Origin: Tubulanus polymorphus | Taxonomy: Eukaryota; Nemertea; Palaeonemertea; Tubulaniformes; Tubulanidae | Assembly (NCBI RefSeq): GCF_964204645.1 | Contig: NC_134034.1 | Coordinates: forward strand, 14,237,024 to 14,301,023 | DNA length: 64,000 nucleotides | Direction of reading: 5' to 3' | Notes under the pieces: model-generated | What the model was told of the DNA's origin: nothing | The model's database searches: none | What the model saw: the letters and a program-made list of their open reading frames with translations, nothing else | Shown: piece after piece, positions 13,402 to 45,200 of the stretch | How the letters are laid out: each line of letters opens with the position of its first letter | Numbering within the stretch: the first letter of the stretch is position 1 | Made by a program: the position numbers and the translations under genes

Positions 13402-13422
13402 GCCTCCGTGGCGCAATTGGTC

Positions 13423-13472
<50 letters not shown>

Positions 13473-13475
13473 GCG
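13402..13475 (+). tRNA. trnN-GUU: tRNA-Asn (GTT)
   Basis: A complete cloverleaf. The acceptor stem GCCTCCG/CGGGGGC has one T-G wobble, followed by a D arm with GGCGCAATTGGTCAGCGC, anticodon stem CGGCT/AACCG with anticodon GTT at 13436-13438, variable loop, and T arm GGTGGTTCAAGCCCACC. Box A and box B are present; the T loop reads TTCAAGC instead of TTCGAGC. No intron and no encoded CCA, as expected of a eukaryotic nuclear tRNA gene. Confidence 0.96.
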
Positions 13476-20918: not shown

Positions 20919-22362
20919 ATGTAGTGAACCTGGTTGTGATTACAGCTGTCTTCAAAAACATTCATTACACACTCATCTCATGAAACATACAGGTACTTAA
21001 TTACTACTAGATCAATCTGCAGCCTAGATACTGTACCCCTCTCCTGGATACTGTACCCCTCTCCTGGATACTGTACCCCTCAGCCTGGACCGTGTACCCC
21101 TCAGCCTTCCCTCACCCTAGACCGTGTACCCCTCAGCCTGGATACATTCCCCCTCAGCCTCCACTCAGCCTGGACCCTTCAGCCCAGACCCTGTACCCCT
21201 CAGCCTGGACCGTGTTCCCCTCAGCCTGGACCCTGTACCCCTCAGCCTGGACCCTTCAGCCTAGACCCTGTACCCCTCAGCCTGGATACTGTACCCCTCA
21301 GCCTAGACCCTGTACCCCTCAGCCTGGACCCTGCACCCCTCAGCCTGGTCCCTGCATCCCTCAGCCTCCACTCAGCCTGGATCCTGCACCCCTCAGCCTC
21401 CACTCAGCCTGGACCCTGTACCCCTCAGCCTCCACTCAGCCTGGTCCCTGCACCCCTCAGCCTCCACTCAGCCTGGATCCTGCACCCCTCAGCCTCCACT
21501 CAGCCTGGACCGTGTACCCCTCAGCCTCCACTCAGCCTGGATCCTGCACCCCTCAGCTCAGCCTCCACTCAGCCTGGATCCTGCACCCCTCAGCCTCCAC
21601 TCAGACTGGACCGTGTACCCCTCAGCCTCCACTCAGCCTGGTCCCTGCACCCCTCAGCCTCCACTCAGCCTGGATCCTGCACCCCTCAGCCTCCACTCAG
21701 CCTGGACCGTGTACCCCTCAGTCTAGATACTGTACCCGTTCCCCCTCATCCTCCTGAGGGTAACAGCTGCTGATTTTTACCCAATTTATCCGAAATGAAG
21801 TGAATTTCATTGAAATATTGAATGTATGTATTTTCAGGTGAAGCGATGAAATGTCCGGAATCGAGTTGTTCGTTTACAACTCGTCATAAATCGAGTTTAA
21901 AATTACATATAAAACGCAAACACACGACGGAGACACGAGATAAAGTGAAACTGTTTAACTGCGCGATGTGTCAATATTCAACCGATCTAAAATCATATTA
22001 CAATCGACACATGAAAAAACATCTGGGATTTAAAGATTTTAAATGTTCTCAATGTTCGTATACGGCTTCGAGTAAAGACGCGATTCGAGTTCACACGAGA
22101 ATTCACTCGAATTTACAGATTTATCAGTGCGAGTTCTGCGGTTATAGAACGAACTAGTTCGGCTTTACGCGTTCATTTAATGGTTCATCGCGATATTAAA
22201 CCGTGGATGTGTTCGATCTGCGATTATAAATCAGTCACGCGACAGAAAGTCAATCGCCACATCCGACAGCGTCATAAAAACATGGACGACGCGACTGCCG
22301 TTTTTGTAAAATCGGAATCGATTCATATTTCGGCGTCAAGACGAGTAACGAGAAGATCGTGA
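20919..22362 (+). pseudogene. C2H2 zinc-finger gene, frameshifted in finger 5
   Basis: An exon at 20919-20992 encodes finger 1 (CSEPGC, C-x4-C-x12-H-x3-H). It joins in phase, through an HTGE linker, to an exon at 21838-22362 carrying fingers 2-6: CPESSC, CAMCQYS, CSQCSYT, CEFCGYR and CSICDYK, all with proper HxxxH or HxxxxH ends. Finger 5 is interrupted at ~22155: the frame hits TAG after GYRTN, while SSALRVHLMVH continues two bases out of frame. This fits a 2-nt deletion within AACTAGT. The 5' coding exon was not found; the ATG at 20780 with a GTGAGT donor would be out of phase. The frame after the shift ends at 22362. This may be a nuclear zinc-finger DNA-binding protein with an assembly or allelic indel, or a decaying gene; the LINE fragment downstream favours decay. 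Confidence 0.65.
21019..21745 (+). repeat. C-rich minisatellite in a zinc-finger intron
   Basis: About 30 irregular units of 18-33 bp based on CCTGGACCCTGTACCCCTCAG with interspersed CCTCCACTCAG segments. It lies wholly inside the intron between 20992 and 21838. One plus frame is open and proline-rich, but this reflects the repeat. Confidence 0.93.
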
Positions 22363-22423
22363 AACTCGGGATTAGATACGAACAATCTGGAAACGCTACG
22401 GAATCTATAGATCAGTGTAAAAC

Positions 22424-22434
22424 TATTATTATTA

Positions 22435-22471
<37 letters not shown>

Positions 22472-22512
22472 CATTATTATTATCATTATTATTATTATTA
22501 TTATTATTATAT
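22424..22512. repeat. (TTA/ATT)n microsatellite
   Basis: An almost pure TTA tract with three C interruptions. Read on the minus strand it is TAA-rich and sits at the 3' side of the LINE fragment, so it may be that element's 3' tail. Confidence 0.9.
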
Positions 22513-22569
22513 TGTATTTTGTGTCAGAATCCACTTAAGTGATCAATGACACTTCATTACTGAATAAAT

Positions 22570-22930
22570 CTAATGTGGTGAAAACAAATGTGTTTTGAGG
22601 CTTCTCTTGAAGACAGAGATACTGGAAGCCGCTCTTACATGGCGAGGAAGGTTGTTCCACAAACGTGGAGCAGCGACTGAGAAGGCTCTGTCTCCAAGAG
22701 AAGCTAATCTTGAACGGGGTTGAGTAAGCAAAAGATCATCTGCTGAACGTAACATTCTAGTCGGGGAGTAAGGTGATAAAAGGTCTTGAAGGTATTTTGG
22801 AGCCAGTCCATAGAAACATTTGTAAGCAGACAATAGGATCTTGAAGTTAATACGCTCTTTGACTGGGAGCCAGTGCAGCTGTTTGAGAATAGGAGAAATT
22901 TGTTCGTATTTTAGAGTATGGGGCGCTATT
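22570..22930 (-). mobile_element. Non-LTR retrotransposon (LINE) reverse-transcriptase C-terminal fragment
   Basis: The minus-strand frame has the C-terminal block common to many animal LINE ORF2 proteins: ISPILKQLHWLPVKERI, FKILLSAYKCFYGLAPKYL, PRSRLASLGDRAFSVAAP, RLWNNLP and FKRSLKTHLF. Only about the last 110-120 codons remain, so it is 5'-truncated. The stop is at 22570 and a short 3' segment runs into the TAA-rich tract. It lies inside the zinc-finger locus in the opposite orientation. Confidence 0.85.
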
Positions 22931-23093
22931 AGAGTATGATGTACGCGAAGATGAAGAGATTTGTACTTTACAATGTTCACTGTGTAATTTCACTTGTCAC
23001 TCTGATTCATCTTTAACTTTACATCAATTGAATTTTTATTCTAACGGTCACATACAAATAGTCGACAATAATGAACATTTTACTCAGTTCTAG
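22923..23093 (+). pseudogene. Residual zinc finger beyond the LINE fragment
   Basis: The plus frame reads an acidic stretch (VREDEE) followed by CSLCNFTCHSDSSLTLHQL and ends at TAG 23091-23093. C-x2-C-x12-H fits a C2H2 finger, but the second histidine is displaced (H-x8-H). Its position suggests it was the last finger of the gene at 20919-22362, separated by the LINE insertion. A chance match cannot be excluded. Confidence 0.45.
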
Positions 23094-23700
23094 TAAATAG
23101 TAATACCGGTAGTCAAATGTGTGTGTTTAAGGGTTTTGTTGCTCAAGTAACTGTTCATCGATCTTTCATTTTGTAAAAATTAGAATAAACATGTTTTCCT
23201 GAAGTTATGAGTCATTGATCTTTGTAGCTGTAATCAGTATCAGTGATTTTTAGCTCGAACCTGGGACGCCCCTGTTCATCCATCCTCTATTCAGCATCAG
23301 GACCACTCTGAATCAGTATCAGTAATTACTGGGTTTGAATCCTGGACATCCTCTATTCAGCATCAGGACCACTCTGAATCACAGCAATTGATGGGTTTGA
23401 ACCCGGGACATCCTCTATTCAGCATCAGGACCACTCTGAATCACAGCGATTGATGGGTTTGAACCCGGGATACCCCTGTACATCCTCTATTCAGCATCAG
23501 GACCACTCTAAATCAGTATCAGTAATTACTGGGTTTGAACCCGAGACACCCCTGTACATCTTCTATTCAGCATCAGGACCACTCTGAATCATAGCAATTG
23601 ATGTGTTTGAACACGGGACACCCCCGTACATCCTCTATTCAGCATCAGGACCAATCTGAATCAGTTATCAGTAATTACTTTTGTTAAGATATCAACATTT

Positions 23701-26700
23701 TACCGTATGGTGCTGCCTCTAGGCTCATCGTTAGCGGAATTTTTATACACTAACGTTAGTCAACCCTGGCAAGCTAAGGTCACGGAGTATAACTGGCCAG
23801 CACGTCGATTGCCAGAGTTGACTTAAGTTAGTGTATGAAAATTTCGATAACGTTGAGCATAGCGGCAGCACTGTACGGTCGGTACACCCCTATTCATCCT
23901 TTATCCATCAGGACCACTCTGAATCACAGCAATTGATGGGTTTGAACCCAGGACACCCCTGTACATCCTCTATTCAGCATCAGGACCACTCTGAATCACA
24001 GCAATTGATGGGTTTGAACCCGGGACACCCCCGTTCATCCTTTATCCATCAGGACCATTAATCACAGCAATTGATGGGTTTGAACACGGGACACCCCCGT
24101 ACATCCTCTATTCAGCATCAGGACCACTCTGAATCACAGCAATTGATGGGTTTGAACCAGAGACATCCCGTACATCCTCTTTTCAGCATCAGGACCACTC
24201 TGAATCACAGCAATTGATGGGTTTGAACACGGGATACCCCTTTACATCCTCTATTCAGCATCAGTACCGCTCTGAATCAGTTATCAACATTTTACCGTAC
24301 GGTGCTGCCTCTATGCTCATCGTTAGAGGAATTTTTATACACTAACGTTAGTCAACTCTGGCAAGCTAAGGTCACGGAGTACAACTGGACAGCACGTCGA
24401 TTGCCAGAGTTGACTTTAGTTAGTGTATGGAAATCCCGCTAACGATGAGCATAGCGGCAGCACTGTACGGTCGGTACACCCCTGTTCATCCTTTATCCAT
24501 CAGGACCACTCTGAATCACAGCAATTGATGGGTTTGAACCCGGGATACCCCTGTTCATCCTCTATTCAGCATCAGGACCACTCTGAATCACAGCAATTGA
24601 TGGGTTTGAACCTGGGATACCCCTGTTAATCCTTTATCCATCAGGACCACTCTGAATCACAGCAATTGATGGGTTTGAACCCGGGATACCCCTGTACATC
24701 CTCTATTCAGCATCAGGACCACTCTGAATCAGTATCAGTAATTACTGGGTTTAAACCCGAGACACCCCTGTACATCCTCTATTCAGCATCAGGACCACTC
24801 TGAATCATAGCAATTGATGGGTTTGAACACGGGACACCCCCGTACATCCTCTATTCATCAGGACCACTCTGAATCACAGCAATTGATGGGTTTGAACACG
24901 GGACACCCCTGTACATCCTCTATTCAGCATCAGGACCACGCTGAATCAGTGATCAACATTTTACCGTATGGTGCTGACTCTATACTCATCGTTAGCGGAA
25001 TTTTTATACACTAACGTTAGTCAACCCCGGCAAGCTAAGGTCACGGAGTACAACTCGGCAGCACGTCGATTGCCAGAGTTGACTTAAGTTAGTGTATGAA
25101 AATCCCGCTAACGATGAGCATAGCGGCAGCACTTACGGTCGGTACACCCCTGTACATCCTTTATCCATCAGGACAACTCTGAATCACAGCAATTGATGGG
25201 TTTGAACACGGGATACCCCTGCACATCCGTTATCAACCAGGACCACTCTGAATCATAGCAATTGATGGGTTTGAACCCGGGATACCCCTGTTCATCCTCT
25301 ATCCAGCATCAGGACCACTCTGAATCAGTATCAGTAATTACTGGGTTTGAACCCGAGACACCCCCGTACATCCTCTATTCAGCATCAGGACCACTCTGAA
25401 TCAGTTATCAGTAATTACTTTTGTTAAGATATCAACATTTTACCGTATGGTGCTGCCTCTAGGCTCATCGTTAGCGGAATTTTTATACACTAACGTTAGT
25501 CAACCCTGGCAAGCTAAGGTCACGGAGTATAACTGGCCAGCACGTCGATTGCCAGAGTTGACTTAAGTTAGTGTATGAAAATTTCGCTAACGTTGAGCAT
25601 AGCGGCAGCACTGTACGGTCGGTACACCCCTATTCATCCTTTATCCATCAGAGGACCACTCTGAATCACAGCAATTGATGGGTTTGAACCCAGGACACCC
25701 CTGTACATCCTCTATTCAGCATCAGGACCACTCTGAATCACAGCAATTGATAGGTTTGAACCCGGGACACCCCCGTTCATCCTTTATCCATCAGGACCAT
25801 TCTGAATCACAGCAATTGATGGGTTTGAACACGGGACACCCCCGTACATCCTCTATTCAGCATCAGGAGTACTCTGAATCACAGCAATTGATGGGTTTGA
25901 ACCCGGGATACCCCTGTTCATCCTTTATCCATCAGGACCACTCTGAATCAGAGCAATTGATGGGTTTGAACCAGAGACATCCCGTACATCCTCTATTCAG
26001 CATCAGGACCACTCTGAATCACAGCAATTGATGGGTTTGAACCCGGGATACCCCTGTACATCCTCTATTCAGCATCAGGACCACTCTGAATCACAGCAAT
26101 TGATGGGTTTGAACCAGAGACATCCCGTACATCCTCTATTCAGCATCAGGACCACTCTGAATCACAGCAATTGATGGGTTTGAACACGGGATACCCCTTT
26201 ACATCCTCTTCAGCATCAGTACCGCTCTGAATCAGTTATCAACATTTTACCGTACGGTGCTGCCTCTATGCTCATCGTTAGAGGAATTTTTATACACTAA
26301 CGTTAGTCAACCCTGGCAAGCTAAGGTCACGGAGTACAACTGGACAGCACGTCGATTGCCAGAGTTGACTTTAGTTAGTGTATGGAAATCCCGCTAACGA
26401 TGAGCATAGCGGCAGCACTGTACGGTCGGTACACCCCTGTTCATCCTTTATCCATCAGGACCACTCTGAATCACAGCAATTGATGGGTTTGAACCCGGGA
26501 TACCCCTGTTCATCCTCTATTCAGCATCAGGACCACTCTGAATCACAGCAATTGATGGGTTTGAACACGGGATACCCCTGTTAATCCTTTATCCATCAGG
26601 ACCACTCTGAATCACAGCAATTGATGGGTTTGAACCCGGGATACCCCCGTACATCCTCTATTCAGCATCAGGACCACTCTGAATCACAGCAATTGATGGG

Positions 26701-29700
26701 TTTGAACCTGGGATACCCCTGTTAATCCTTTATCCATCAGGACCACTCTGAATCACAGCAATTGATGGGTTTGAACCCGGGATACCCCTGTACATCCTCT
26801 ATTCAGCATCAGGACCACTCTGAATCAGTATCAGTAATTACTGGGTTCAAACCCGAGACACCCCTGTACATCCTCTATTCAGCATCAGGACCACTCTGAA
26901 TCAGTATCAGTAATTACTGGGTTCAAACCCGAGACACCCCTGTACATCCTCTATTCAGCATCAGGACCACTCTGAATCAGTATCAGTAATTACTGGGGTT
27001 TAAACCCGAGACACCCCTGTACATCCTCTATTCAGCATCAGGACCACTCTGAATCATAGCAATTGATGGGTTTGAACACGGGACACCCCCGTACATCCTC
27101 TATCCATCAGGACCACTCTGAATCACAGCAATTGATGGGTTTGAACACGGGACACCCCTGTACATCCTCTATTCAGCATCAGGACCACTCTGAATCAGTG
27201 ATCAACATTTTACCGTATGGTGCTGCCTCTATACTCATCGTTAGCGGAATTTTTATACACTAACGTTAGTCATCCCCGGCAAGCTAAGGTCACGGAGTAC
27301 AACTCGGCAGCACGTCGATTGCCAGAGTTGACTTTAGTTAGTGTATGAAAATCCCGCTAACGATGAGCATAGCGGCAGCACTGTACGGTCGGTACATCCC
27401 TATTCATCCTTTATCCATCAGGACCACTCTGAATCACAGCAATTGATGGGTTTGAACCCGGGATACCCCTGTTCATCCTCTATTCAGCATCAGGACCACT
27501 CTGAATCACAGCAATTGATGGGTTTGAACCCGGGATACCCCTGTACATCCTCTATTCAGCATCAGGACCACTCTGAATCACAGCAATTGATGGGTTTGAA
27601 CCCGGGATACCCCTGTACATCCGTTATCCACCAGGACCACTCTGAATCACAGCAATTGATGGGTTAGAAATCGAGACGCCCCTGTACATCCTCTATTCAG
27701 CATCAGGACCGCTCTGAATCAGTTATCAACATTTTACCGTACGGTGCTGCCTCAATGCTCATCGTTAGCGGAATTTTTATACACTAACGTTAGTCAACTC
27801 TGGCAAGCTAAGGTCACGGAGTACAACTGGACAGCACGTCGATTGCCAAAGTTGACTTTAGTTAGTGTATGAAAATCCCGCTAACGATCAGCATAGCGGC
27901 AGCACTGTACGGTCGGTACACCCCTGTTCATCCTTTATTCATCAGGACCACTCTGAACCAGTATCAGTAATTACTGGGTTTGAACACGGGATACCCCCGT
28001 ACATCCTCTATTCAGCATCAGGACCACTCTGAATCACAGCAATTGATGGGTTTGAACCCGGGATACCCCTGTACATCCTCTATTCAGCCTCAGGACCACT
28101 CTGAATCACAGCAATTGATGGGTTTGAACCCGGGATACCCCTGTACATCCTCTATTCAGCATCAGGACCACTCTGAATCAGTTATCAGTAATTACTTTTG
28201 TTAAGATATCAACATTTTACCGTACGGTGCTGCCTCTATGCTCATCGTTAGCGGAATTTTTATACACTAACGTTAGTCAACTCTGGCAAGCTAAGGTCAC
28301 GGAGTACAACTGGACAGCACGTCGATTGCCAGAGTTGACTTTAGTTAGTGTATGAAAATCCCGCTAACGATGAGCATAGCGGCAGCACTTACGGTCGGTA
28401 CACCCCTATTCATCCTTTATCCATCAGGACCACTCTGAATCACAGCAATTGATGGGTTTGAACCCGGGATACCCCTGTACATCCTTTATCCATCAGGACA
28501 ACTCTGAATCACAGCAATTGATGGGTTTGAACCCGGGATACCCCTGTACATCCTCTATTCAGCATCAGGACCAATCTGAATCAGTTATCAGTAATTACTT
28601 TTGTTAAGATATCAACATTTTACCGTATGGTGCTGCCTCTAGGCTCATCGTTAGCGGAATTTTTATACACTAACGTTAGTCAACCCTGGCAAGCTAAGGT
28701 CACGGAGTATAACTGGCCAGCACGTCGATTGCCAGAGTTGACTTAAGTTAGTGTATGAAAATTTCGCTAACGTTGAGCATAGCGGCAGCACTGTACGGTC
28801 GGTACACCCCTATTCATCCTTTATCCATCAGGACCACTCTGAATCACAGCAATTGATGGGTTTGAACCCAGGACACCCCTGTACATCCTCTATTCAGCAT
28901 CAGGAGTACTCTGAATCACAGCAATTGATGGGTTTGAACCCGGGATACCCCTGTTCATCCTTTATCCATCAGGACCACTCTGAATCACAGCAATTGATGG
29001 GTTTGAACACGGGATACCCCTTTACATCCTCTATTCAGCATCAGTACCGCTCTGAATCAGTTATCAACATTTTACCGTACGGTGCTGCCTCTATGCTCAT
29101 CGTTAGAGGAATTTTTATACACTAACGTTAGTCAACTTCTGCAAGCTAAGGTCACGGAGTACAACTGGACAGCACGTCGATTGCCAGAGTTGACTTTAGT
29201 TAGTGTATGGAAATCCCGCTAACGATGAGCATAGCGGCAGCACTGTACGGTCGGTACACCCCTGTTCATCCTTTATCCATCAGGACCACTCTGAATCACA
29301 GCAATTGATGGGTTTGAACCCGGGATACCCCTGTTCATCCTCTATTCAGCATCAGGACCACTCTGAATCACAGCAATTGATGGGTTTGAACCTGGGATAC
29401 CCCTGTTAATCCTTTATCCATCAGGACGACTCTGAATCACAGCAATTGATGGGTTTGAACCCGGGATACCCCCGTACATACTCTATTCAGCATCAGGACC
29501 ACTCTGAATCACAGCAATTGATGGGTTTGAACCTGGGATACCCCTGTTAATCCTTTATCCATCAGGACCACTCTGAATCACAGCAATTGATGGGTTTGAA
29601 CCCGAGACACCCCCGTACATCCTCTATTCAGCATCAGGACCACTCTGAATCACAGCAATTGATGGGTTTGAACCCGGGACACCCCTGTAAATCTTTTATC

Positions 29701-32700
29701 CACCAGGACCACTGTGAATCACAGCAATTGATGGGTTTGAACACGGGATACCCCTGTTCATCCTCTATTCAGCATCAGGACCACTCTGAATCACAGCAAT
29801 TGATGGGTTTGAACCCGGGATACCCCTGTACATCCTCTATTCAGCATCAGGACCACTCTGAATCACAGCAATTGATGGGTTTGAACCCGGGATACCCCTG
29901 TACATCCGTTATCCACCAGGACCACTCTGAATCACAGCAATTGATGGGTTAGAAATCGAGACGCCCCTGTACATCCTCTATTCAGCATCAGGACCGCTCT
30001 GAATCAGTTATCAACATTTTACCGTACGGTGCTGCCTCAATGCTCATCGTTAGCGGAATTTTTATACACTAACGTTAGTCAACTCTGGCAAGCTAAGGTC
30101 ACGGAGTACAACTGGACAGCACGTCGATTGCCAAAGTTGACTTTAGTTAGTGTATGAAAATCCCGCTAACGATCAGCATAGCGGCAGCACTGTACGGTCG
30201 GTACACCCCTGTTCATCCTTTATTCATCAGGACCACTCTGAACCAGTATCAGTAATTACTGGGTTTGAACACGGGATACCCCCGTACATCCTCTATTCAG
30301 CATCAGGACCACTCTGAATCACAGCAATTGATGGGTTTGAACCCGGGATACCCCTGTACATCCTCTATTCAGCCTCAGGACCACTCTGAATCACAGCAAT
30401 TGATGGGTTTGAACCCGGGATACCCCTGTACATCCTCTATTCAGCATCAGGACCACTCTGAATCAGTTATCAGTAATTACTTTTGTTAAGATATCAACAT
30501 TTTACCGTACGGTGCTGCCTCTATGCTCATCGTTAGCGGAATTTTTATACACTAACGTTAGTCAACTCTGGCAAGCTAAGGTCACGGAGTACAACTGGAC
30601 AGCACGTCGATTGCCAGAGTTGACTTTAGTTAGTGTATGAAAATCCCGCTAACGATGAGCATAGCGGCAGCACTTACGGTCGGTACACCCCTATTCATCC
30701 TTTATCCATCAGGACCACTCTGAATCACAGCAATTGATGGGTTTGAACCCGGGATACCCCTGTACATCCTTTATCCATCAGGACAACTCTGAATCACAGC
30801 AATTGATGGGTTTGAACCCGGGATACCCCTGTACATCCTCTATTCAGCATCAGGACCAATCTGAATCAGTTATCAGTAATTACTTTTGTTAAGATATCAA
30901 CATTTTACCGTATGGTGCTGCCTCTAGGCTCATCGTTAGCGGAATTTTTATACACTAACGTTAGTCAACCCTGGCAAGCTAAGGTCACGGAGTATAACTG
31001 GCCAGCACGTCGATTGCCAGAGTTGACTTAAGTTAGTGTATGAAAATTTCGCTAACGTTGAGCATAGCGGCAGCACTGTACGGTCGGTACACCCCTATTC
31101 ATCCTTTATCCATCAGGACCACTCTGAATCACAGCAATTGATGGGTTTGAACCCAGGACACCCCTGTACATCCTCTATTCAGCATCAGGACCACTCTGAA
31201 TCACAGCAATTGATAGGTTTGAACCCGGGACACCCCCGTTCATCCTTTATCCATCAGGACCATTCTGAATCACAGCAATTGATGGGTTTGAACACGGGAC
31301 ACCCCCGTACATCCTCTATTCAGCATCAGGAGTACTCTGAATCACAGCAATTGATGGGTTTGAACCCGGGATACCCCTGTTCATCCTTTATCCATCAGGA
31401 CCACTCTGAATCAGAGCAATTGATGGGTTTGAACCAGAGACATCCCGTACATCCTCTATTCAGCATCAGGACCACTCTGAATCACAGCAATTGATGGGTT
31501 TGAACACGGGATACCCCTTTACATCCTCTATTCAGCATCAGTACCGCTCTGAATCAGTTATCAACATTTTACCGTACGGTGCTGCCTCTATGCTCATCGT
31601 TAGAGGAATTTTTATACACTAACGTTAGTCAACTTCTGCAAGCTAAGGTCACGGAGTACAACTGGACAGCACGTCGATTGCCAGAGTTGACTTTAGTTAG
31701 TGTATGGAAATCCCGCTAACGATGAGCATAGCGGCAGCACTGTACGGTCGGTACACCCCTGTTCATCCTTTATCCATCAGGACCACTCTGAATCACAGCA
31801 ATTGATGGGTTTGAACCCGGGATACCCCTGTTCATCCTCTATTCAGCATCAGGACCACTCTGAATCACAGCAATTGATGGGTTTGAACCTGGGATACCCC
31901 TGTTAATCCTTTATCCATCAGGACGACTCTGAATCACAGCAATTGATGGGTTTGAACCCGGGATACCCCCGTACATACTCTATTCAGCATCAGGACCACT
32001 CTGAATCACAGCAATTGATGGGTTTGAACCTGGGATACCCCTGTTAATCCTTTATCCATCAGGACCACTCTGAATCACAGCAATTGATGGGTTTGAACCC
32101 GAGACACCCCCGTACATCCTCTATTCAGCATCAGGACCACTCTGAATCACAGCAATTGATGGGTTTGAACCCGGGACACCCCTGTAAATCTTTTATCCAC
32201 CAGGACCACTGTGAATCACAGCAATTGATGGGTTTGAACACGGGATACCCCTGTTCATCCTCTATTCAGCATCAGGACCACTCTGAATCACAGCAATTGA
32301 TGGGTTTGAACCCGGGATACCCCTGTACATCCTCTATTCAGCATCAGGACCACTCTGAATCACAGCAATTGATGGGTTTGAACCCGGGATACCCCTGTAC
32401 ATCCGTTATCCACCAGGACCACTCTGAATCACAGCAATTGATGGGTTAGAAATCGAGACGCCCCTGTACATCCTCTATTCAGCATCAGGACCGCTCTGAA
32501 TCAGTTATCAACATTTTACCGTACGGTGCTGCCTCAATGCTCATCGTTAGCGGAATTTTTATACACTAACGTTAGTCAACTCTGGCAAGCTAAGGTCACG
32601 GAGTACAACTGGACAGCACGTCGATTGCCAAAGTTGACTTTAGTTAGTGTATGAAAATCCCGCTAACGATCAGCATAGCGGCAGCACTGTACGGTCGGTA

Positions 32701-35700
32701 CACCCCTGTTCATCCTTTATTCATCAGGACCACTCTGAACCAGTATCAGTAATTACTGGGTTTGAACACGGGATACCCCCGTACATCCTCTATTCAGCAT
32801 CAGGACCACTCTGAATCACAGCAATTGATGGGTTTGAACCCGGGATACCCCTGTACATCCTCTATTCAGCCTCAGGACCACTCTGAATCACAGCAATTGA
32901 TGGGTTTGAACCCGGGATACCCCTGTACATCCTCTATTCAGCATCAGGACCACTCTGAATCAGTTATCAGTAATTACTTTTGTTAAGATATCAACATTTT
33001 ACCGTACGGTGCTGCCTCTATGCTCATCGTTAGCGGAATTTTTATACACTAACGTTAGTCAACTCTGGCAAGCTAAGGTCACGGAGTACAACTGGACAGC
33101 ACGTCGATTGCCAGAGTTGACTTTAGTTAGTGTATGAAAATCCCGCTAACGATGAGCATAGCGGCAGCACTTACGGTCGGTACACCCCTATTCATCCTTT
33201 ATCCATCAGGACCACTCTGAATCACAGCAATTGATGGGTTTGAACCCGGGATACCCCTGTACATCCTTTATCCATCAGGACAACTCTGAATCACAGCAAT
33301 TGATGGGTTTGAACCCGGGATACCCCTGTACATCCTCTATTCAGCATCAGGACCAATCTGAATCAGTTATCAGTAATTACTTTTGTTAAGATATCAACAT
33401 TTTACCGTATGGTGCTGCCTCTAGGCTCATCGTTAGCGGAATTTTTATACACTAACGTTAGTCAACCCTGGCAAGCTAAGGTCACGGAGTATAACTGGCC
33501 AGCACGTCGATTGCCAGAGTTGACTTAAGTTAGTGTATGAAAATTTCGCTAACGTTGAGCATAGCGGCAGCACTGTACGGTCGGTACACCCCTATTCATC
33601 CTTTATCCATCAGGACCACTCTGAATCACAGCAATTGATGGGTTTGAACCCAGGACACCCCTGTACATCCTCTATTCAGCATCAGGACCACTCTGAATCA
33701 CAGCAATTGATAGGTTTGAACCCGGGACACCCCCGTTCATCCTTTATCCATCAGGACCATTCTGAATCACAGCAATTGATGGGTTTGAACACGGGACACC
33801 CCCGTACATCCTCTATTCAGCATCAGGAGTACTCTGAATCACAGCAATTGATGGGTTTGAACCCGGGATACCCCTGTTCATCCTTTATCCATCAGGACCA
33901 CTCTGAATCAGAGCAATTGATGGGTTTGAACCAGAGACATCCCGTACATCCTCTATTCAGCATCAGGACCACTCTGAATCACAGCAATTGATGGGTTTGA
34001 ACACGGGATACCCCTTTACATCCTCTATTCAGCATCAGTACCGCTCTGAATCAGTTATCAACATTTTACCGTACGGTGCTGCCTCTATGCTCATCGTTAG
34101 AGGAATTTTTATACACTAACGTTAGTCAACTTCTGCAAGCTAAGGTCACGGAGTACAACTGGACAGCACGTCGATTGCCAGAGTTGACTTTAGTTAGTGT
34201 ATGGAAATCCCGCTAACGATGAGCATAGCGGCAGCACTGTACGGTCGGTACACCCCTGTTCATCCTTTATCCATCAGGACCACTCTGAATCACAGCAATT
34301 GATGGGTTTGAACCCGGGATACCCCTGTTCATCCTCTATTCAGCATCAGGACCACTCTGAATCACAGCAATTGATGGGTTTGAACCTGGGATACCCCTGT
34401 TAATCCTTTATCCATCAGGACGACTCTGAATCACAGCAATTGATGGGTTTGAACCCGGGATACCCCCGTACATACTCTATTCAGCATCAGGACCACTCTG
34501 AATCACAGCAATTGATGGGTTTGAACCTGGGATACCCCTGTTAATCCTTTATCCATCAGGACCACTCTGAATCACAGCAATTGATGGGTTTGAACCCGAG
34601 ACACCCCCGTACATCCTCTATTCAGCATCAGGACCACTCTGAATCACAGCAATTGATGGGTTTGAACCCGGGACACCCCTGTAAATCTTTTATCCACCAG
34701 GACCACTGTGAATCACAGCAATTGATGGGTTTGAACACGGGATACCCCTGTTCATCCTCTATTCAGCATCAGGACCACTCTGAATCACAGCAATTGATGG
34801 GTTTGAACCCGGGATACCCCTGTACATCCTCTATTCAGCATCAGGACCACTCTGAATCACAGCAATTGATGGGTTTGAACCCGGGATACCCCTGTACATC
34901 CGTTATCCACCAGGACCACTCTGAATCACAGCAATTGATGGGTTAGAAATCGAGACGCCCCTGTACATCCTCTATTCAGCATCAGGACCGCTCTGAATCA
35001 GTTATCAACATTTTACCGTACGGTGCTGCCTCAATGCTCATCGTTAGCGGAATTTTTATACACTAACGTTAGTCAACTCTGGCAAGCTAAGGTCACGGAG
35101 TACAACTGGACAGCACGTCGATTGCCAAAGTTGACTTTAGTTAGTGTATGAAAATCCCGCTAACGATCAGCATAGCGGCAGCACTGTACGGTCGGTACAC
35201 CCCTGTTCATCCTTTATTCATCAGGACCACTCTGAACCAGTATCAGTAATTACTGGGTTTGAACACGGGATACCCCCGTACATCCTCTATTCAGCATCAG
35301 GACCACTCTGAATCACAGCAATTGATGGGTTTGAACCCGGGATACCCCTGTACATCCTCTATTCAGCCTCAGGACCACTCTGAATCACAGCAATTGATAG
35401 GTTTGAACCCGGGACACCCCCGTTCATCCTTTATCCATCAGGACCATTCTGAATCACAGCAATTGATGGGTTTGAACACGGGACACCCCCGTACATCCTC
35501 TATTCAGCATCAGGAGTACTCTGAATCACAGCAATTGATGGGTTTGAACCCGGGATACCCCTGTTCATCCTTTATCCATCAGGACCACTCTGAATCAGAG
35601 CAATTGATGGGTTTGAACCAGAGACATCCCGTACATCCTCTATTCAGCATCAGGACCACTCTGAATCACAGCAATTGATGGGTTTGAACCCGGGATACCC

Positions 35701-38700
35701 CTGTACATCCTCTATTCAGCATCAGGACCACTCTGAATCACAGCAATTGATGGGTTTGAACCAGAGACATCCCGTACATCCTCTATTCAGCATCAGGACC
35801 ACTCTGAATCACAGCAATTGATGGGTTTGAACACGGGATACCCCTTTACATCCTCTATTCAGCATCAGTACCGCTCTGAATCAGTTATCAACATTTTACC
35901 GTACGGTGCTGCCTCTATGCTCATCGTTAGAGGAATTTTTATACACTAACGTTAGTCAACCCTGGCAAGCTAAGGTCACGGAGTACAACTGGACAGCACG
36001 TCGATTGCCAGAGTTGACTTTAGTTAGTGTATGGAAATCCCGCTAACGATGAGCATAGCGGCAGCACTGTACGGTCGGTACACCCCTGTTCATCCTTTAT
36101 CCATCAGGACCACTCTGAATCACAGCAATTGATGGGTTTGAACCCGGGATACCCCTGTTCATCCTCTATTCAGCATCAGGACCACTCTGAATCACAGCAA
36201 TTGATGGGTTTGAACACGGGATACCCCTGTTAATCCTTTATCCATCAGGACCACTCTGAATCACAGCAATTGATGGGTTTGAACCCGGGATACCCCCGTA
36301 CATCCTCTATTCAGCATCAGGACCACTCTGAATCACAGCAATTGATGGGTTTGAACCTGGGATACCCCTGTTAATCCTTTATCCATCAGGACCACTCTGA
36401 ATCACAGCAATTGATGGGTTTGAACCCGGGATACCCCTGTACATCCTCTATTCAGCATCAGGACCACTCTGAATCAGTATCAGTAATTACTGGGTTCAAA
36501 CCCGAGACACCCCTGTACATCCTCTATTCAGCATCAGGACCACTCTGAATCAGTATCAGTAATTACTGGGGTTTAAACCCGAGACACCCCTGTACATCCT
36601 CTATTCAGCATCAGGACCACTCTGAATCATAGCAATTGATGGGTTTGAACACGGGACACCCCCGTACATCCTCTATCCATCAGGACCACTCTGAATCACA
36701 GCAATTGATGGGTTTGAACACGGGACACCCCTGTACATCCTCTATTCAGCATCAGGACCACTCTGAATCAGTGATCAACATTTTACCGTATGGTGCTGCC
36801 TCTATACTCATCGTTAGCGGAATTTTTATACACTAACGTTAGTCAACCCCGGCAAGCTAAGGTCACGGAGTACAACTCGGCAGCACGTCGATTGCCAGAG
36901 TTGACTTTAGTTAGTGTATGAAAATCCCGCTAACGATGAGCATAGCGGCAGCACTGTACGGTCGGTACATCCCTATTCATCCTTTATCCATCAGGACCAC
37001 TCTGAATCACAGCAATTGATGGGTTTGAACCCGGGATACCCCTGTACATCCTTTATCCATCAGGACAACTCTGAATCACAGCAATTGATGGGTTTGAACA
37101 CGGGATACCCCTGCACATCCGTTATCAACCAGGACCACTCTGAATCATAGCAATTGATGGGTTTGAACCCGGGATACCCCTGTTCATCCTCTATCCAGCA
37201 TCAGGACCACTCTGAATCAGTATCAGTAATTACTGGGTTTGAACCCGAGACACCCCCGTACATCCTCTATTCAGCATCAGGACCACTCTGAATCACAGCA
37301 ATTGATGGGTTTGAACCCGGGACACCCCTGTACATCCTCTATTCAGCATCAGGACCACTCTGAATCACAGCAATTGATGGGTTTGAACCCGGGACACCCC
37401 TGTAAATCTTTTATCCACCAGGACCACTGTGAATCACAGCAATTGATGGGTTTGAACACGGGATACCCCTGTTCATCCTCTATTCAGCATCAGGACCACT
37501 CTGAATCACAGCAATTGATGGGTTTGAACCCGGGATACCCCTGTACATCCTCTATTCAGCATCAGGACCACTCTGAATCACAGCAATTGATGGGTTTGAA
37601 CCCGGGATACCCCTGTACATCCGTTATCCACCAGGACCACTCTGAATCACAGCTATTGATGGGTTAGAAATCGAGACGCCCCTGTACATCCTCTATTCAG
37701 CATCAGGACCGCTCTGAATCAGTTATCAACATTTTACCGTACGGTGCTGCCTCAATGCTCATCGTTAGCGGAATTTTTATACACTAACGTTAGTCAACTC
37801 TGGCAAGCTAAGGTCACGGAGTACAACTGGACAGCACGTCGATTGCCAAAGTTGACTTTAGTTAGTGTATGAAAATCCCGCTAACGATCAGCATAGCGGC
37901 AGCACTGTACGGTCGGTACACCCCTGTTCATCCTTTATTCATCAGGACCACTCTGAACCAGTATCAGTAATTACTGGGTTTGAACACGGGATACCCCCGT
38001 ACATCCTCTATTCAGCATCAGGACCACTCTGAATCACAGCAATTGATGGGTTTGAACCCGGGATACCCCTGTACATCCTCTATTCAGCCTCAGGACCACT
38101 CTGAATCACAGCAATTGATGGGTTTGAACCCGGGATACCACTGTACATCCTCTATTCAGCATCAGGACCACTCTGAATCAGTTATCAGTAATTACTTTTG
38201 TTAAGATATCAACATTTTACCGTACGGTGCTGCCTCTATGCTCATCGTTAGCGGAATTTTTATACACTAACGTTAGTCAACTCTGGCAAGCTAAGGTCAC
38301 GGAGTACAACTGGACAGCACGTCGATTGCCAGAGTTGACTTTAGTTAGTGTATGAAAATCCCGCTAACGATGAGCATAGCGGCAGCACTTACGGTCGGTA
38401 CACCCCTATTCATCCTTTATCCATCAGGACCACTCTGAATCACAGCAATTGATGGGTTTGAACCCGGGATACCCCTGTACATCCTTTATCCATCAGGACA
38501 ACTCTGAATCACAGCAATTGATGGGTTTGAACCCGGGATACCCCTGTACATCCTCTATTCAGCATCAGGACCAATCTGAATCAGTTATCAGTAATTACTT
38601 TTGTTAAGATATCAACATTTTACCGTATGGTGCTGCCTCTAGGCTCATCGTTAGCGGAATTTTTATAAACTAACGTTAGTCAACCCTGGCAAGCTAAGGT

Positions 38701-39468
38701 CACGGAGTATAACTGGCCAGCACGTCGATTGCCAGAGTTGACTTAAGTTAGTGTATGAAAATTTCGCTAACGTTGAGCATAGCGGCAGCACTGTACGGTC
38801 GGTACACCCCTATTCATCCTTTATCCATCAGGACCACTCTGAATCACAGCAATTGATGGGTTTGAACCCAGGACACCCCTGTACATCCTCTATTCAGCAT
38901 CAGGACCACTCTGAATCACAGCAATTGATAGGTTTGAACCCGGGACACCCCCGTTCATCCTTTATCCATCAGGACCATTCTGAATCACAGCAATTGATGG
39001 GTTTGAACACGGGACACCCCCGTACATCCTCTATTCAGCATCAGGAGTACTCTGAATCACAGCAATTGATGGGTTTGAACCCGGGATACCCCTGTTCATC
39101 CTTTATCCATCAGGACCACTCTGAATCAGAGCAATTGATGGGTTTGAACCAGAGACATCCCGTACATCCTCTATTCAGCATCAGGACCACTCTGAATCAC
39201 AGCAATTGATGGGTTTGAACACGGGATACCCCTTTACATCCTCTATTCAGCATCAGTACCGCTCTGAATCAGTTATCAACATTTTACCGTACGGTGCTGC
39301 CTCTATGCTCATCGTTAGAGGAATTTTTATACACTAACGTTAGTCAACTTTGGCAAGCTAAGGTCACGGAGTACAACTGGACAGCACGTCGATTGCCAGA
39401 GTTGACTTTAGTTAGTGTATGGAAATCCCGCTAACGATGAGCATAGCGGCAGCACTGTACGGTCGGTA
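23701..39468 (+). mobile_element. 25 foldback (MITE-like) modules within the satellite
   Basis: Each module is ~183-185 bp, starting TACCGTA(C/T)GGTGCTGCCTC and ending GGCAGCACTGTACGGTCGGTA. The ~70-bp terminal inverted arms are roughly 80-90% complementary around a ~40-bp centre containing AGCTAAGGTCACGGAGT. Starts: 23701, 24293, 24962, 25441, 26248, 27211, 27735, 28218, 28621, 29073, 30020, 30503, 30906, 31570, 32517, 33000, 33403, 34067, 35014, 35897, 36784, 37735, 38218, 38621, 39285. All have one orientation and replace the same ~30-bp part of a monomer, so they were amplified with the array rather than inserted separately. Subtypes (TCTAGG, TCTATG, TCAATG, TCTATA after GCTGCC) recur in order. 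There is no coding capacity. Confidence 0.9.
29203..35390 (+). repeat. 2,497-bp higher-order repeat
   Basis: The same succession of monomers and foldback subtypes recurs with an offset of exactly 2,497 bp. Landmarks fall at 29203/31700/34197, at 29587/32084/34581 and at 30265/32762/35259. A shorter 2,285-bp spacing links 27980 to 30265 and 28751 to 31036. The third copy breaks at about 35390, where it switches to sequence equivalent to ~31205, a junction expected of unequal crossover. Confidence 0.9.
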
Positions 39469-40067
39469 CACCCCTGTTCATCCTTTATCCATCAGGACCA
39501 CTCTGAATCACAGCAATTGATGGGTTTGAACCCGGGATACCCCTGTTCATCCTCTATTCAGCATCAGGACCACTCTGAATCACAGCAATTGATGGGTTTG
39601 AACACGGGATACCCCTGTTAATCCTTTATCCATCAGGACCACTCTGAATCACAGCAATTGATGGGTTTGAACCCGGGATACCCCCGTACATCCTCTATTC
39701 AGCATCAGGACCACTCTGAATCACAGCAATTGATGGGTTTGAACCTGGGATACCCCTGTTAATCCTTTATCCATCAGGACGACTCTGAATCACAGCAATT
39801 GATGGGTTCGAACCCGGGATACCCCCGTACATACTCTATTCAGCATCAGGACCACTCTGAATCACAGCAATTGATGGGTTTGAACCTGGGATACCCCTGT
39901 TAATCCTTTATCCATCAGGACCACTCTGAATCACAGCAATTGATGGGTTCGAACCCGGGATACCCCTGTACATCCTCTATTCAGCATCAGGACCACTCTG
40001 AATCAGTATCAGTTATTACTGGGTTCAAACCCGAGACACCCCTGTACATCCTCTATTCAGCATCAGG

Positions 40068-40135
40068 ACCACTGGTCTAGTGGTTAGAATTCCCGCCTGG
40101 TAAACCGGAGACCATAGTTTCGAGTCCTGCCATAG
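40068..40135 (+). mobile_element. tRNA-derived (SINE-head-like) sequence
   Basis: GGTCTAGTGGTTAGAATTC resembles a tRNA D arm/box A, and TAGTTTCGAGTCCTGCC, about 30 bases later, resembles box B and the T arm. The anticodon stem (CCGCCTGGTAAACCGG) is imperfect and the acceptor stem does not pair well, so it is not a functional tRNA. It begins directly in a satellite monomer (after CATCAGGACCACT). The tRNA of origin is unclear. Confidence 0.5.
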
Positions 40136-40794
40136 CGAACATACGCTTTTGGTAATTTGCCCCAAGTCTGTTTCTTTTTTTAATATTTCAGATTGTGATG
40201 AGGGGTGGCCTACTCGGTGATATTGATTTGAAGATGAAATAATTTTAGTGGATCATGAATTTAGGAAAAAGATTACAGCACCACTGACCCATGTTTAAAA
40301 CCTACAGAAATATTTCGGATGATGGATGTAATTTCAGAGGGTATAATTTGAAACGCCAATAAGAGCAGCCCCAAAATGTGATCAGTTGTCCATACTATCG
40401 AGGACTCCAAAGAATTCCCTAGGTCCGAGAGAAACGACTACGAACGACGAGACTTCCTTATCGTTGAAAGATCTATAACAGCACTGATTTATTCTGCCCA
40501 TACGTTCATATAAATGATATTGAGATTACATTGTGTCAAATCTGTACAACTATTGGATAGAATCTAGTAAACAACCTGTACAGTACTGAAAAGGGATTAT
40601 CACATGAATTATATGGATTGATATGATACAACAACCATGAATGAAAACTACAACATAAATACAACCATATACGCCGAATGATATATTCGCGACACTCCGG
40701 CCACAACAAAATAACTATGTACTATTACTTTCTCTATCTGAAATTATAAAGTTGTTCACAAATTAACTATTTACAGAAATACCGATAAGTACCA
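40136..40794. other. Gene-free spacer
   Basis: AT-rich, with no recognised coding, RNA or tandem-repeat feature. It lies downstream (3') of the BEL/Pao fragment and could hold decayed retrotransposon sequence. Confidence 0.4.
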
Positions 40795-41715
40795 TTAACA
40801 GACGTCATCGGCAACGTCTTTATATACATTTCTGATTCTTTGCCGGGCTAAATCTGCTGCTTGACGAGTACTCAGATTACGAGGAATACTTGCCCTTCCA
40901 GTTTCAGAAGGAGGGGCATCTTCGTCATTTTCAGTTGTCTGTAATTCTAAAGGATAAAGTTTTGACAAAGGGCGGTTTGTTACTCCGCTAGCAGTCCTCA
41001 ACGAGCAGGACCGGACACGACCATCCTGCCCCCTGAACAATTCAACAATTACACCTAAACGCCAGCTGGTACGAGGACCCTCATCGTGTATCAAAACTAC
41101 CGATCCCGTTTTAACTATTTCTCTGTTATCACCGACATTCCTATGAAATTCCCTAAGACCAGTTAGATATTCTGTACGCCAACGTTCCCAAAACTGACGT
41201 ACTAACGACACAATAAAATTGTATCTGTTACTTAGTGAACGGCTATTGACAACAAATTCCGGGTCATTAATATCAGCATCACCTATCGGTAGAGAGGTGA
41301 TGCGCCTCCCGCACATTAAATGAGATGGAGTCAAAGGACCCAAATCGTTTATATCGCTCGATATATACATCAGTGGACGATCATTCAAGATCGCCTCTAT
41401 TTCTGTAACCACAGTTACGAATTCAACATAGGTCAAAAAAGAACTATCTCATTTTTGAAAATCTGCCGTAAATGTGTATTGGCACCAACGAACGTAGTGG
41501 CGTTGTCGCTCAACATCAACTTTGGCAGGGAGCGTCTGGAAACAAACCTCCTGAAAGCAGAAAGAAAGGTTTCACTTTTGTTATCCGAAACAACTTCAAG
41601 GTGAATTGCGCGACTAACCGCGCACGTAAATAGGGCTATACACACTTTCCCGCCACCTTTCAAAATCATAGGCCCTAAATAATCGACCCCAGTATAATAA
41701 AAGGATGGCAGTGTG
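40795..41715 (-). mobile_element. BEL/Pao LTR retrotransposon integrase fragment, frameshifted
   Basis: The minus-strand frame 41715-41433 carries the start of an integrase core (YYTGVDYLGP with the first catalytic Asp; AVSRAIHLEVV; LSDNATTFVGA with the second Asp). A second frame, 41436-40795, continues with EIEAILNDRPL, SHLMCGRR, FWERWRTEYL, LREFH and a C-terminal domain ending near YPLEL, typical of BEL/Pao polyproteins. The frames differ at ~41435, and the stretch normally lying between them, including the third catalytic acidic residue, is missing. No LTRs, gag, protease or reverse transcriptase were seen. It is a dead fragment. Confidence 0.85.
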
Positions 41716-41776
41716 AGTGAGTGAAACCTGTGATGGCTCTCACTCTTAATTACGAATCTATTCGATTCTTATTCAG

Positions 41777-41937
41777 TACATACAGTCGGTCATTTACTGT
41801 TGGGTGCTGCCCCTATGTGTATAATAAACGGTAAATTTGTGAATTAACTGATTCCTACTGCGGCGCGCGAGTAATAAGTTAGTTCATATATTCACCGTCA
41901 ACGATATGTATAGGGGCAGCACTTGACGGTTAAAATA
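41777..41937. mobile_element. Second foldback (MITE-like) module
   Basis: An inverted repeat with outer arms GGGTGCTGCCCCTATGTGTA and the complement of TATGTATAGGGGCAGCACTT, extending inward ~50 bp with mismatches to a GC-rich centre (GCGGCGCGCGAG). The outer GTGCTGCC/GGCAGCAC core is shared with the modules of the main array, but the rest differs. Relict satellite monomers follow immediately. Confidence 0.7.
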
Positions 41938-41939
41938 TG

Positions 41940-42235
41940 TATGGTTTCGAACCAGTATTTACACGGTTCGAACCCGGGACACCCCAGAGTACATCCTCTA
42001 TTCAGCATCAGGACCATTCGTGAACCACTTTCAGTAATTATTGGGTTCGTACCCGGGACACCCCTGTACATCCTCTATTTAGCATCAGTACCACTCTCGG
42101 ACAGTACCCGGCCGAGACACCCCTGTTCCAGCATCTCAGGACCACTCTGAACCAGTATCAGTAATTACTGGATTCGAACCCGGGACACCCCTGTACATCC
42201 TCTATTCAGCATCAGGACCACTCTCTCAGACGCGG
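41940..42235 (+). repeat. Relict satellite monomers
   Basis: Four diverged copies of the 69/72-bp monomer (CATCCTCTATTCAGCATCAG, CGAACCCGGGACACCCC). Here the T-arm-like motif is GGTTCGAACCC, GGTTCGTACCC or GATTCGAACCC, closer to a box B consensus than most units of the main array. The last unit stops at ACTCTCTCAGACG. Confidence 0.85.
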
Positions 42236-45200
42236 ACTCTATTCAATCCGGACGCGTCCGGGTCTCCAATTACACTCGTTCATCGATCACGCGCCGGATC
42301 ATCCGGATGTCATCCGGATACAAGTTCATCATAGCATCAACAGGCAACCAGTCTAGGCGCTCAGTCTATTACATCCTCGCTTGCCAGGGGTCCGGTATCA
42401 CTCCCGAACTAGCTTCCACCAGGTTAGCCGAATCCCTTGACGGGTGAAGATGGACAACCGTGTACGTTACCGCCGAGTCCGGTTCCGTGTCCGTACAGTA
42501 ACAACTACAAATGAATTTGATGAGATAAGTTGTATATTCATAATTTTATTTCAACGTAAAATATCTTTTTATTCAATAACAGTGCAAAAAATACACATTA
42601 AAAACCTCTAAAAAATTTATAATAAATTTGAATCGAGTGATGAAATAAATTTGAATCGAGTGATACCGCTACCGAATCCACAGTGCTTACTTCACGACGG
42701 TGGCTGGTTCAGTTCAGTATGTCACTGTCAGTAGAGATCGGATTTTCCTTCGAGCAGGGTAGATTTTGACGCTGACAGCGAATGCAGGTGGCGCAGAATT
42801 GGACAGGCGACCAGTCTATAGCCGGGTTCGACTATTTCACACGACTCAGGATGACCTTTAAAAATGGAGGCTTTTTCGATCGGATTTACGTAGGGTCTAG
42901 AGGTGCCCTGACAGCGAATGCAGGTGGCGCAGAATTGGACAAACGACCAGTCTACAGTTTTACAAGCCTAAATTAGGAATGAGAATGAAACGATTTTTCT
43001 TTCATTTCGTCGAGTTTCAAATCAAAAACGAAACAAGCGCTGAAAAATTTGCAATCACTGAGATTTTTATTCATCTATAATGAAATTTACATGTAATAAT
43101 GTGAAGATACAAGTAGCGAATAATGAAACTAGTCCTGGACTTAAAACCCTTAAATTCCCGACGACCTATAAATAGGTCGCGTTTACACAATATTCCAAAA
43201 ACCAGACCAGGAGATGAAACGACGAATCGTACCAGAAACAAAATCGAAAAAATTTCATTCGGCAATCAAATCATAATTCTACATTTTTCATAATAATCGC
43301 GAGTACGGTATAAACAATGAATATTTGTTTTTTTTGTTTGCTTTGGACAATATTCGATCATTTAACATTCAATAATAATAATAAAACATACAGTATTTAT
43401 TACTGGCTATGTTTCTTTTCGCGATTATTAATTTTGTTCATGGAACAAAAAGGAAAACGAACAAACAGAAAGAAACATTAAACGACAAGCACAAAAAACT
43501 GACATCAAAACTAATAGAATCACCTCTTCTATTCATAACATGACCCCCTAATGCCTACAGTACCATTTACCCCCCTTAGATAAATAGACGATCCCTGAAA
43601 GCGATGAAGTGTTTAAAAGTCTCTCAACCATCTGAGTAAAACTAAAATTTCATACTTGCGAAATATTGTAGTTTTAGTTGAGCGCGTTTTTTCATGATGA
43701 GTATTTGCGATAATTCCGAAACTCAAAATAACTCGCAAACTTTTTGCATTCGAAAAAAGTACCGACAAAGCACGCATTATTTGAACCCACGGGGGATCAC
43801 TTGTACTCGTAAACGAGACCAGAAGTTTTCAGTACGTTTGAAGTAGATGTTTATGAAGTGTTCTGATACAGGTTCATCCCCTCCGGCCCCCGAGAACAAC
43901 TTCTAACAAAACTCGAGATGTTTACATTCTTCGAAAGTTGTTGAAAAGTATAGAATCTACCGATGAATCGGTGAATCGGTGAATCGGTAGAGCGATACTT
44001 TCCTTCTGGTTATAATTGTATTTAATTGCAGCAAAAAGTAAGCAGATTTTGAGTCCGATTTGAGTAATAGCGACAAAGCAAAGAATACCGGGAAAAAATC
44101 GATCTTTTTTTGTCGTTAAAGATCGGATTGAGTTGTTGTTTGTTTTTGGCATGTATTCACCCTAAAACAGAACAGTTAAATGTATATAAAACGTACGAGA
44201 GATTTATATCTCGTATTTGAGAGAGAGAATGAAGGAATCGAATTGATGCATCGTTATTATACAAAACTGGCTGTGACTAATGGTACCCAGTCGTCCACAG
44301 CAGATGTCTCTTTACTTACAGTGAAAATAATCGAACAGATGGACGCGTGTTAGAAAGCAGGCTGTCCACAAACTTATAAAACACATCATCCACAGAAAGA
44401 AACTGTTTTTAACGAAGGCACAGCAACTAATTTGTGCTATAGATAACAATTTTAACAAGTTTCTGGCATAGATAGTGCGATATTGGCCTAAGAAGCAGTA
44501 TATCTGTTATTCTTTAAAGGGCACCTTCGCCCGAATGGACATTTTAGTATTACAACAAATGGCTGGATATAGTAGAGTAGTATTTTAATAAATATAGTTT
44601 GTCGTGTAGTAGCACAAAGATTCATTCTCTGTATATGGCACTTCATTATTTTTATAGCAATGACACAATAGCACACGAACAGTTTTTTTTCTATATACAA
44701 TAAATTCACACGTAAGTTTCCAAAAAAAAAATGAAGTTATAATAATAATAAGCTACAAGCGAAACGAAAGGAAACGCAAAGTTTCGAGTGGTTTCAATCT
44801 ACGGGGAATGAAAGAACTACCACAAAAAACTGACTGCTGAAGTTTTTGGCAAGTTTTCGAGGCAAGTCTCGGCTTAATATACCATAGAAGAAACAGGAAA
44901 ACAAACACAGCGAAAAAAGAGAGAGAGAGAGAGATAGAGGTGGTCTTCGCATTTTTATTTCTAATCTTCGGCAAGAACTCGTCATTTATTATCACGACGA
45001 AAGTGTTCTATAGTTCAGAGATAGAAAAGAGTATATTAGTAGATATGTGTGAGGTGGTACCATCTTTAGTCTAATCACAGAACTAAAATCAAAACTAAAT
45101 ACTGACCAGAAATACATATCCCAGAAACGTAGCGAGGGACTTCATTCAGAGTGTGTCGAATATAGGAAAACTAATCAATTGCTACAGAGGTTTTTTGCAT

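Follow-up and report, generated by a model that had tools for sequence, protein, structure and literature searches.

How does a satellite DNA come to hold a foldback element as a regular part of its higher-order structure? The question is raised by a tandem array of the nemertean Tubulanus polymorphus that lies in the stretch of DNA analyzed here (the window), which is the final 64 kb of its scaffold (G000:C10:14237024-14301023, scaffold end 14301023) in a genome of 268 Mb comprising 77 contigs, 12 of them chromosome-sized. The birth of satellites from mobile elements is an old question, and it is usually visible only at its end points.

Organization of the satellite array

The whole array spans positions 23255-40072 of the window on the + strand and consists of monomers of 69, 72 and 76 bp, such as the 72-bp monomer at 26036-26107 (+; TTTGAACCCGGGATACCCCTGTACATCC...GATGGG), and of foldback modules. 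An initial annotation made from the sequence alone had described 25 modules of about 185 bp, all in the same orientation, within a 69/72-bp monomer array at 23270-40075, and our analysis agrees with this description. At 40072 the array gives way to another element. Pattern scans detected exactly 25 modules between 23692 and 39470, all on the + strand, with the left seed TCAACATTTTACCGTA and the right seed of every module in a single orientation, and the 69/72-bp monomers are accompanied by 76-bp variants. The core of module 1 (ACCGT...ACGGT), our type example of the MITE-like foldback, occupies 23702-23879 (+), and its 178 bp match the annotated length within the latitude left by how the ends are drawn. 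The other 24 modules, likewise on the + strand, start with the left seed TCAACATTTT at positions 24284, 24953, 25432, 26239, 27202, 27726, 28209, 28612, 29064, 30011, 30494, 30897, 31561, 32508, 32991, 33394, 34058, 35005, 35888, 36775, 37726, 38209, 38612 and 39276. The 178-bp core is made of 71-nt arms that are 85% complementary and a 36-nt loop, and its predicted DNA fold reaches −58.2 kcal/mol versus a mean of −20.9 for shuffled sequences (z = −12.6).

The subtypes of the window modules, which differ at up to 15 positions, recur in a fixed order, as had also been annotated: one series of four subtypes is found in modules 7-10, 11-14, 15-18 and 22-25. In modules 11-14 and 15-18 the start-to-start steps are 483, 403, 664 and 947 bp, which add up to a four-module unit of 2,497 bp, and the adjacent units at 30011-32507 and 32508-35004 (both +) are identical over their entire length. 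The array is a satellite with higher-order repeats, in that a multi-monomer unit is repeated at an identity above that of its monomers. The perfect identity of the two units reflects either a very recent duplication or an assembly effect.

The modules replace the same part of the monomer, as first proposed, and do so with uniform junctions. The right junction reads ACGGTCGGTACA(C/T)CCC in 25 of 25 modules, and the left junction exists in a short form (CTGAATCAGTTATCAACATTTT, 15 modules) and a long form (CTGAATCAGTTATCAGTAATTACTTTTGTTAAGATATCAACATTTT, 10 modules), the short one corresponding to the long one minus approximately 26 bp between two TATCA repeats. Relative to the monomer, 22 extra bp are present on the left (TTTGTTAAGATATCAACATTTT) and approximately 11 bp (GGGTTCGAACC) are missing, and no target-site duplication was found at the module-monomer junction.

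The foldback module belongs to a separate MITE-like family

The foldback of the window is a member of an independent MITE-like family with termini of its own. Searching the whole genome for the 18-bp terminus with up to 3 mismatches returned 1,415 + 1,407 matches (2,822), against 72 + 61 (133) for the reversed-pattern control. Family members, mostly 148-178 bp long, run from ACCGT to ACGGT with ends ACCGTACGGTGCTGCC, and we found copies without detected monomers in unrelated flanks at L035, L067, L069, L071, L072, L081, L083, L087, L095 and in the mod2 group described below. The family thus has the attributes of a MITE, being short and non-coding, with terminal inverted repeats and many dispersed copies in independent flanks. 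These standalone copies and the excess of terminus matches confirm the nonautonomous inverted-repeat element recognized in the initial annotation, which had also reasoned that modules never found free of the satellite would speak against a mobile element; monomer-free modules do exist. One further candidate, L043, seemed monomer-free; it retains the composite junctions and was excluded from the independent modules.

TA or TG is found at an equal offset on both sides in 11 standalone copies from approximately 6 independent loci, an offset that was chosen post hoc, and these borders fit a TA duplication and an extended palindromic end equally well. The borders of L067 fit ATAG too; L069, L071 and the mod2 group depart from the pattern. 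As regards a Tc1/mariner-type MITE, TA-like borders are seen in a subset of the modules only.

Monomer-free modules also take part in other tandem structures. At C11:8.912-8.937M a module recurs mostly every ~3.5 kb in a single orientation (L069, L073-L076, L088 and L090), apparently as part of a larger tandem repeat that has no relation to the window satellite, and at C1:2.863-2.865M modules lie approximately 670 bp apart in a different tandem repeat (L072, L089 and L092).

A related subfamily resides in the element that cuts the window array on the right at 40073. This element, of a family that we named Z, extends over 40073-42336 (+) and matches L066 at 97% identity. Its tRNA-like head precedes a related foldback module, mod2 (41793-41933, +), which has 64-nt arms that are 72% complementary; divergent monomers come next, at 41949-42231 (+). 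Including that of the window, the mod2 segment is present in six copies at 98-100% identity. In the window, Z is interrupted at 40390-41709 by 1.3 kb of inserted DNA whose 217-aa ORF matches DUF5641, a domain typical of BEL/Pao-type retrotransposons.

Modules and monomers are joined in a dispersed non-coding carrier

Copies of a larger repeat, here called the carrier, contain one or few modules and are scattered across chromosomes. The order of its parts is monomers(+), monomers(−), a monomer fragment TGAATCAGTTATCAGTAATTACT, 22 bp, the module, a variable number of monomers(+) and a right flank, R1. The single-module copies L009 and L011-L016 are alike in this architecture, L014 being cut on the left, and L010 and L017 keep its left side in part only. 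To the left of the module, the single-module copies have about two monomers on the + strand, then two to three on the − strand. Both inverted arms start at GGACACCCC, and the module is therefore the middle of an inverted repeat made of tandem monomers. The long left junction of the dispersed copies is found again in the 10 window modules that carry this form.

Copies A, B, C and E (C11:12.73M, C2:2.92M, C1:8.11M and C3:2.21M) have flanks in common on both sides over approximately 13 kb, so that the carrier spans at least 13 kb; its mobility is inferred from its dispersal. A TTTGGAG motif, sharp in copies A, C and E, was considered as its terminus and rejected: other copies continue past it in two further versions, and for this reason we do not claim a complete 13-kb element. 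The leftmost 550 bp of the carrier (X) have a sharp 5′ end, CATTATGAG, which is shared by four copies with unrelated flanks beyond. X also exists as a repeat in its own right, with a distinct distribution in the genome, and may be a fused neighbor of the carrier, given that its best copies are mainly mid-chromosome. Some 40 copies of X were scored (L018:2509-3058, CATTATGAGTTTTCC...), with approximately 98% identity and no evident target preference. No target-site duplication was found at the carrier ends tested.

The carrier appears devoid of coding capacity: stop-to-stop ORFs stay below 150 aa in L019 and L020 and do not exceed 115 aa in L022. On this basis a coding carrier was rejected; the large ORFs of copy C belong to an inserted non-LTR retrotransposon (L024/L029, C1:8.126-8.131M) with endonuclease and reverse-transcriptase domains, a TCTAA-like tail and a CCTA duplication. 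A retrozyme or other RNA-based repeat was also rejected: the only Rfam match in the window was a tRNA, and the carrier stretches that were searched had none. Within the carrier there is a second internal tandem repeat of 116 bp in four copies (L023:641-1105), beyond which lies a pair of inverted arms of approximately 219 bp.

Arrays adjoin the carrier flank

R1 adjoins at least seven arrays in the same orientation (C4:24.04M, C10:11.14M, C4:1.449M, C4:24.58M, C5:21.75M, C3:8.095M and C1:0.573M). It begins within approximately 40 bp of the last satellite match in six of them, and approximately 0.4 kb past the last listed module at C1:0.573M. The right-hand segment of the carrier follows after another 10 kb or so at C4:24.03M, C5:21.74M and C2:0.830M, and an array at C2:816k keeps the X junction on its left. 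Module spacing is specific to each array, e.g. 492 bp at C2:445-449k, ~341 bp at C2:548-551k and 342 bp at C4:1.442-1.445M, which points to local amplification. Among the array flanks that were read (six left and four short right), the left ones vary between arrays and two start inside a module (L113 and L115), from which we conclude that loss or rearrangement of the left side is common in arrays.

The left flank of the window array (22204-23302, +) is shared at 84-87% identity with the array at C10:11.13M, which itself runs into R1. The matching parts are 22204-22382 and 23110-23302, separated by a 727-bp interruption (22383-23109). The window array stops short of R1, and its link to the carrier consists of this left flank and of the shared module-monomer junctions.

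The arrays hug scaffold ends: 16 of 22 lie within 2 Mb of an end versus 4 expected, a figure that is indicative, the list of arrays having been compiled by eye from best matches. The same bias is seen for copies of the carrier and of mod2, and repeat X favors the middle of chromosomes.

Origin of the window array

Together, these observations make it probable that the window array arose by expansion of the tandem repeats inside a carrier that is dispersed, non-coding and of mobile type. The process would have begun with the fusion of one copy of the MITE-like module with 69-76-bp monomers inside the carrier. Unequal exchange or a similar slippage could then have paired the monomer fragment that precedes the module with its homologous counterpart in a downstream monomer, and so have duplicated the module with k monomers. 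Such an exchange would place all modules at one monomer position and in one orientation, with no need for repeated insertion. Repeated local rounds would have given rise to the array-specific higher-order periods, and a deletion of approximately 26 bp between the two TATCA repeats to the short module type. The window array would be one such expanded carrier copy, cut on the right by element Z.

This scenario retains part of the initial proposal that an inverted-repeat element entered one monomer and then spread by amplification of the array, namely that a member of a dispersed inverted-repeat family was carried along by array amplification. A clean insertion into a monomer is at odds with the 22 extra bp, the ~11 missing bp and the lack of a target-site duplication at the junction. 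Neither does array amplification alone suffice, since the composite is fixed in the carrier and the arrays next to R1 look like in-place expansions. A simple insertion model does not account for the inverted arms, the altered junction or the R1 flank.

The initial proposal taken as a whole, in which a pre-existing monomer satellite was hit by one transposed inverted-repeat element, the hit monomer was amplified and the dispersed composites were later broken off or captured from the satellite, is unlikely. It agrees with the MITE-like, independent nature of the modules and with their presence at one monomer position throughout the window, but it predicts neither the unclean junction without duplication nor the inverted monomer arms of the dispersed copies, which a head-to-tail array would not acquire by simple insertion, and the carrier right flank stays in place next to arrays. 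We also find it quite unlikely that segmental exchange between subtelomeric regions spread the composite and the arrays between chromosome ends without transposition of the carrier. The bias of arrays and carrier copies to chromosome ends, and the several left flanks that are unrelated or start inside a module (L113, L115), are compatible with such exchange; however, carrier copies also occur far from the ends (C1:8.1M, C3:7.6M and C2:23.6M), and the single sharp left end of four copies with unrelated flanks beyond argues against it. Lastly, the view that the foldback is no mobile element but a palindromic variant intrinsic to the satellite is highly improbable, for although the module is always at one monomer position within the window, this reading is contradicted by the standalone modules in unrelated flanks and by the related subfamilies (mod2, L067, L083, L087 and L095).

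Beyond the expansion of a carrier, a broader and rather doubtful interpretation would have the foldback and monomer pair act as a cassette, linked to several mobile carriers that are unrelated to one another and expanded again and again toward chromosome ends, as though amplification of the neighboring monomers were promoted by the hairpin itself. Its carriers would be the R1 carrier with the module of the window array (mod1), element Z with mod2, and possibly L057.

Comparison with known satellite-seeding elements

The window array probably arose mainly by a route already described in fruit flies and oysters, and its parts are combined in an unusual way. In Drosophila virilis, the arm repeats of the foldback element Tetris have expanded within the element into the TIR-220 satellite; Tetris is non-autonomous, has no ORFs, generates 8-10 bp target-site duplications and shares sequence with the MITE-like DAIBAM (PMC4079207). 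The carrier resembles Tetris in being non-autonomous and without ORFs, in its inverted arms of tandem repeats, in its probable in-place expansion to kilobase arrays and in its related MITE-like element, and by analogy it appears to work like Tetris in seeding satellites. Unlike in Tetris, the repeats are of 69-76 bp, the center is a small foldback MITE that is kept regularly in the higher-order unit, 8-10 bp target-site duplications were not found at the carrier ends tested, and the arrays lie toward chromosome ends rather than in β-heterochromatin. As in FB/Tetris-type elements, arms of tandem subrepeats surround a middle, with monomers(−) on the left and monomers(+) on the right (L009, L011-L016). 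However, these arms are internal, between X and R1, and not terminal, and no 8-10 bp duplication was found, which is why we do not classify the carrier as an FB element.

The Cg_HINE non-autonomous Helentrons of the Pacific oyster are dispersed and non-coding and have central satellite-like tandem repeats (PMC7492417), features that the carrier shares. The landmarks of Cg_HINE are paired 11-12 bp subTIRs, a left microsatellite, a 3′ palindrome and no target-site duplication. In the carrier, one hairpin was seen near the right segment, not terminal in most copies, and no duplication was seen at the ends tested. MITE-derived satellites of Xenopus (Xmix/Xstir and miDNA4) and a mariner element inside a satellite of Messor ants (reviewed in PMC9659126) are comparable in that their tandem arrays consist of, or contain, a MITE or transposon, but monomer and MITE are here two different sequences joined in a larger carrier. 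Our survey of the literature on satellites with a MITE inside the higher-order unit found nothing closer than Tetris.

In this genome the stages are seen together: the free MITE, its fusion with monomers in single-module carriers, multi-module carriers, and large higher-order arrays on the carrier flank. Their succession could be traced with a tree of modules and junctions from the whole genome, which would also help to tell whether the expansion is driven by chromosome ends or by the hairpin.

Other features of the window

Besides the array, the window (1-64000) contains many different minisatellites, such as a 48-bp unit repeated 59 times at 4104-6956. ARAGORN identified a tRNA-Asn gene at 13402-13475 (+), and Rfam agrees on a tRNA. 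Nuclear-receptor exons are present at 47243-48064 (−) and 53281-54057 (−), the ligand-binding domain being recognized by Pfam and the DNA-binding domain by eye in an ORF further along.
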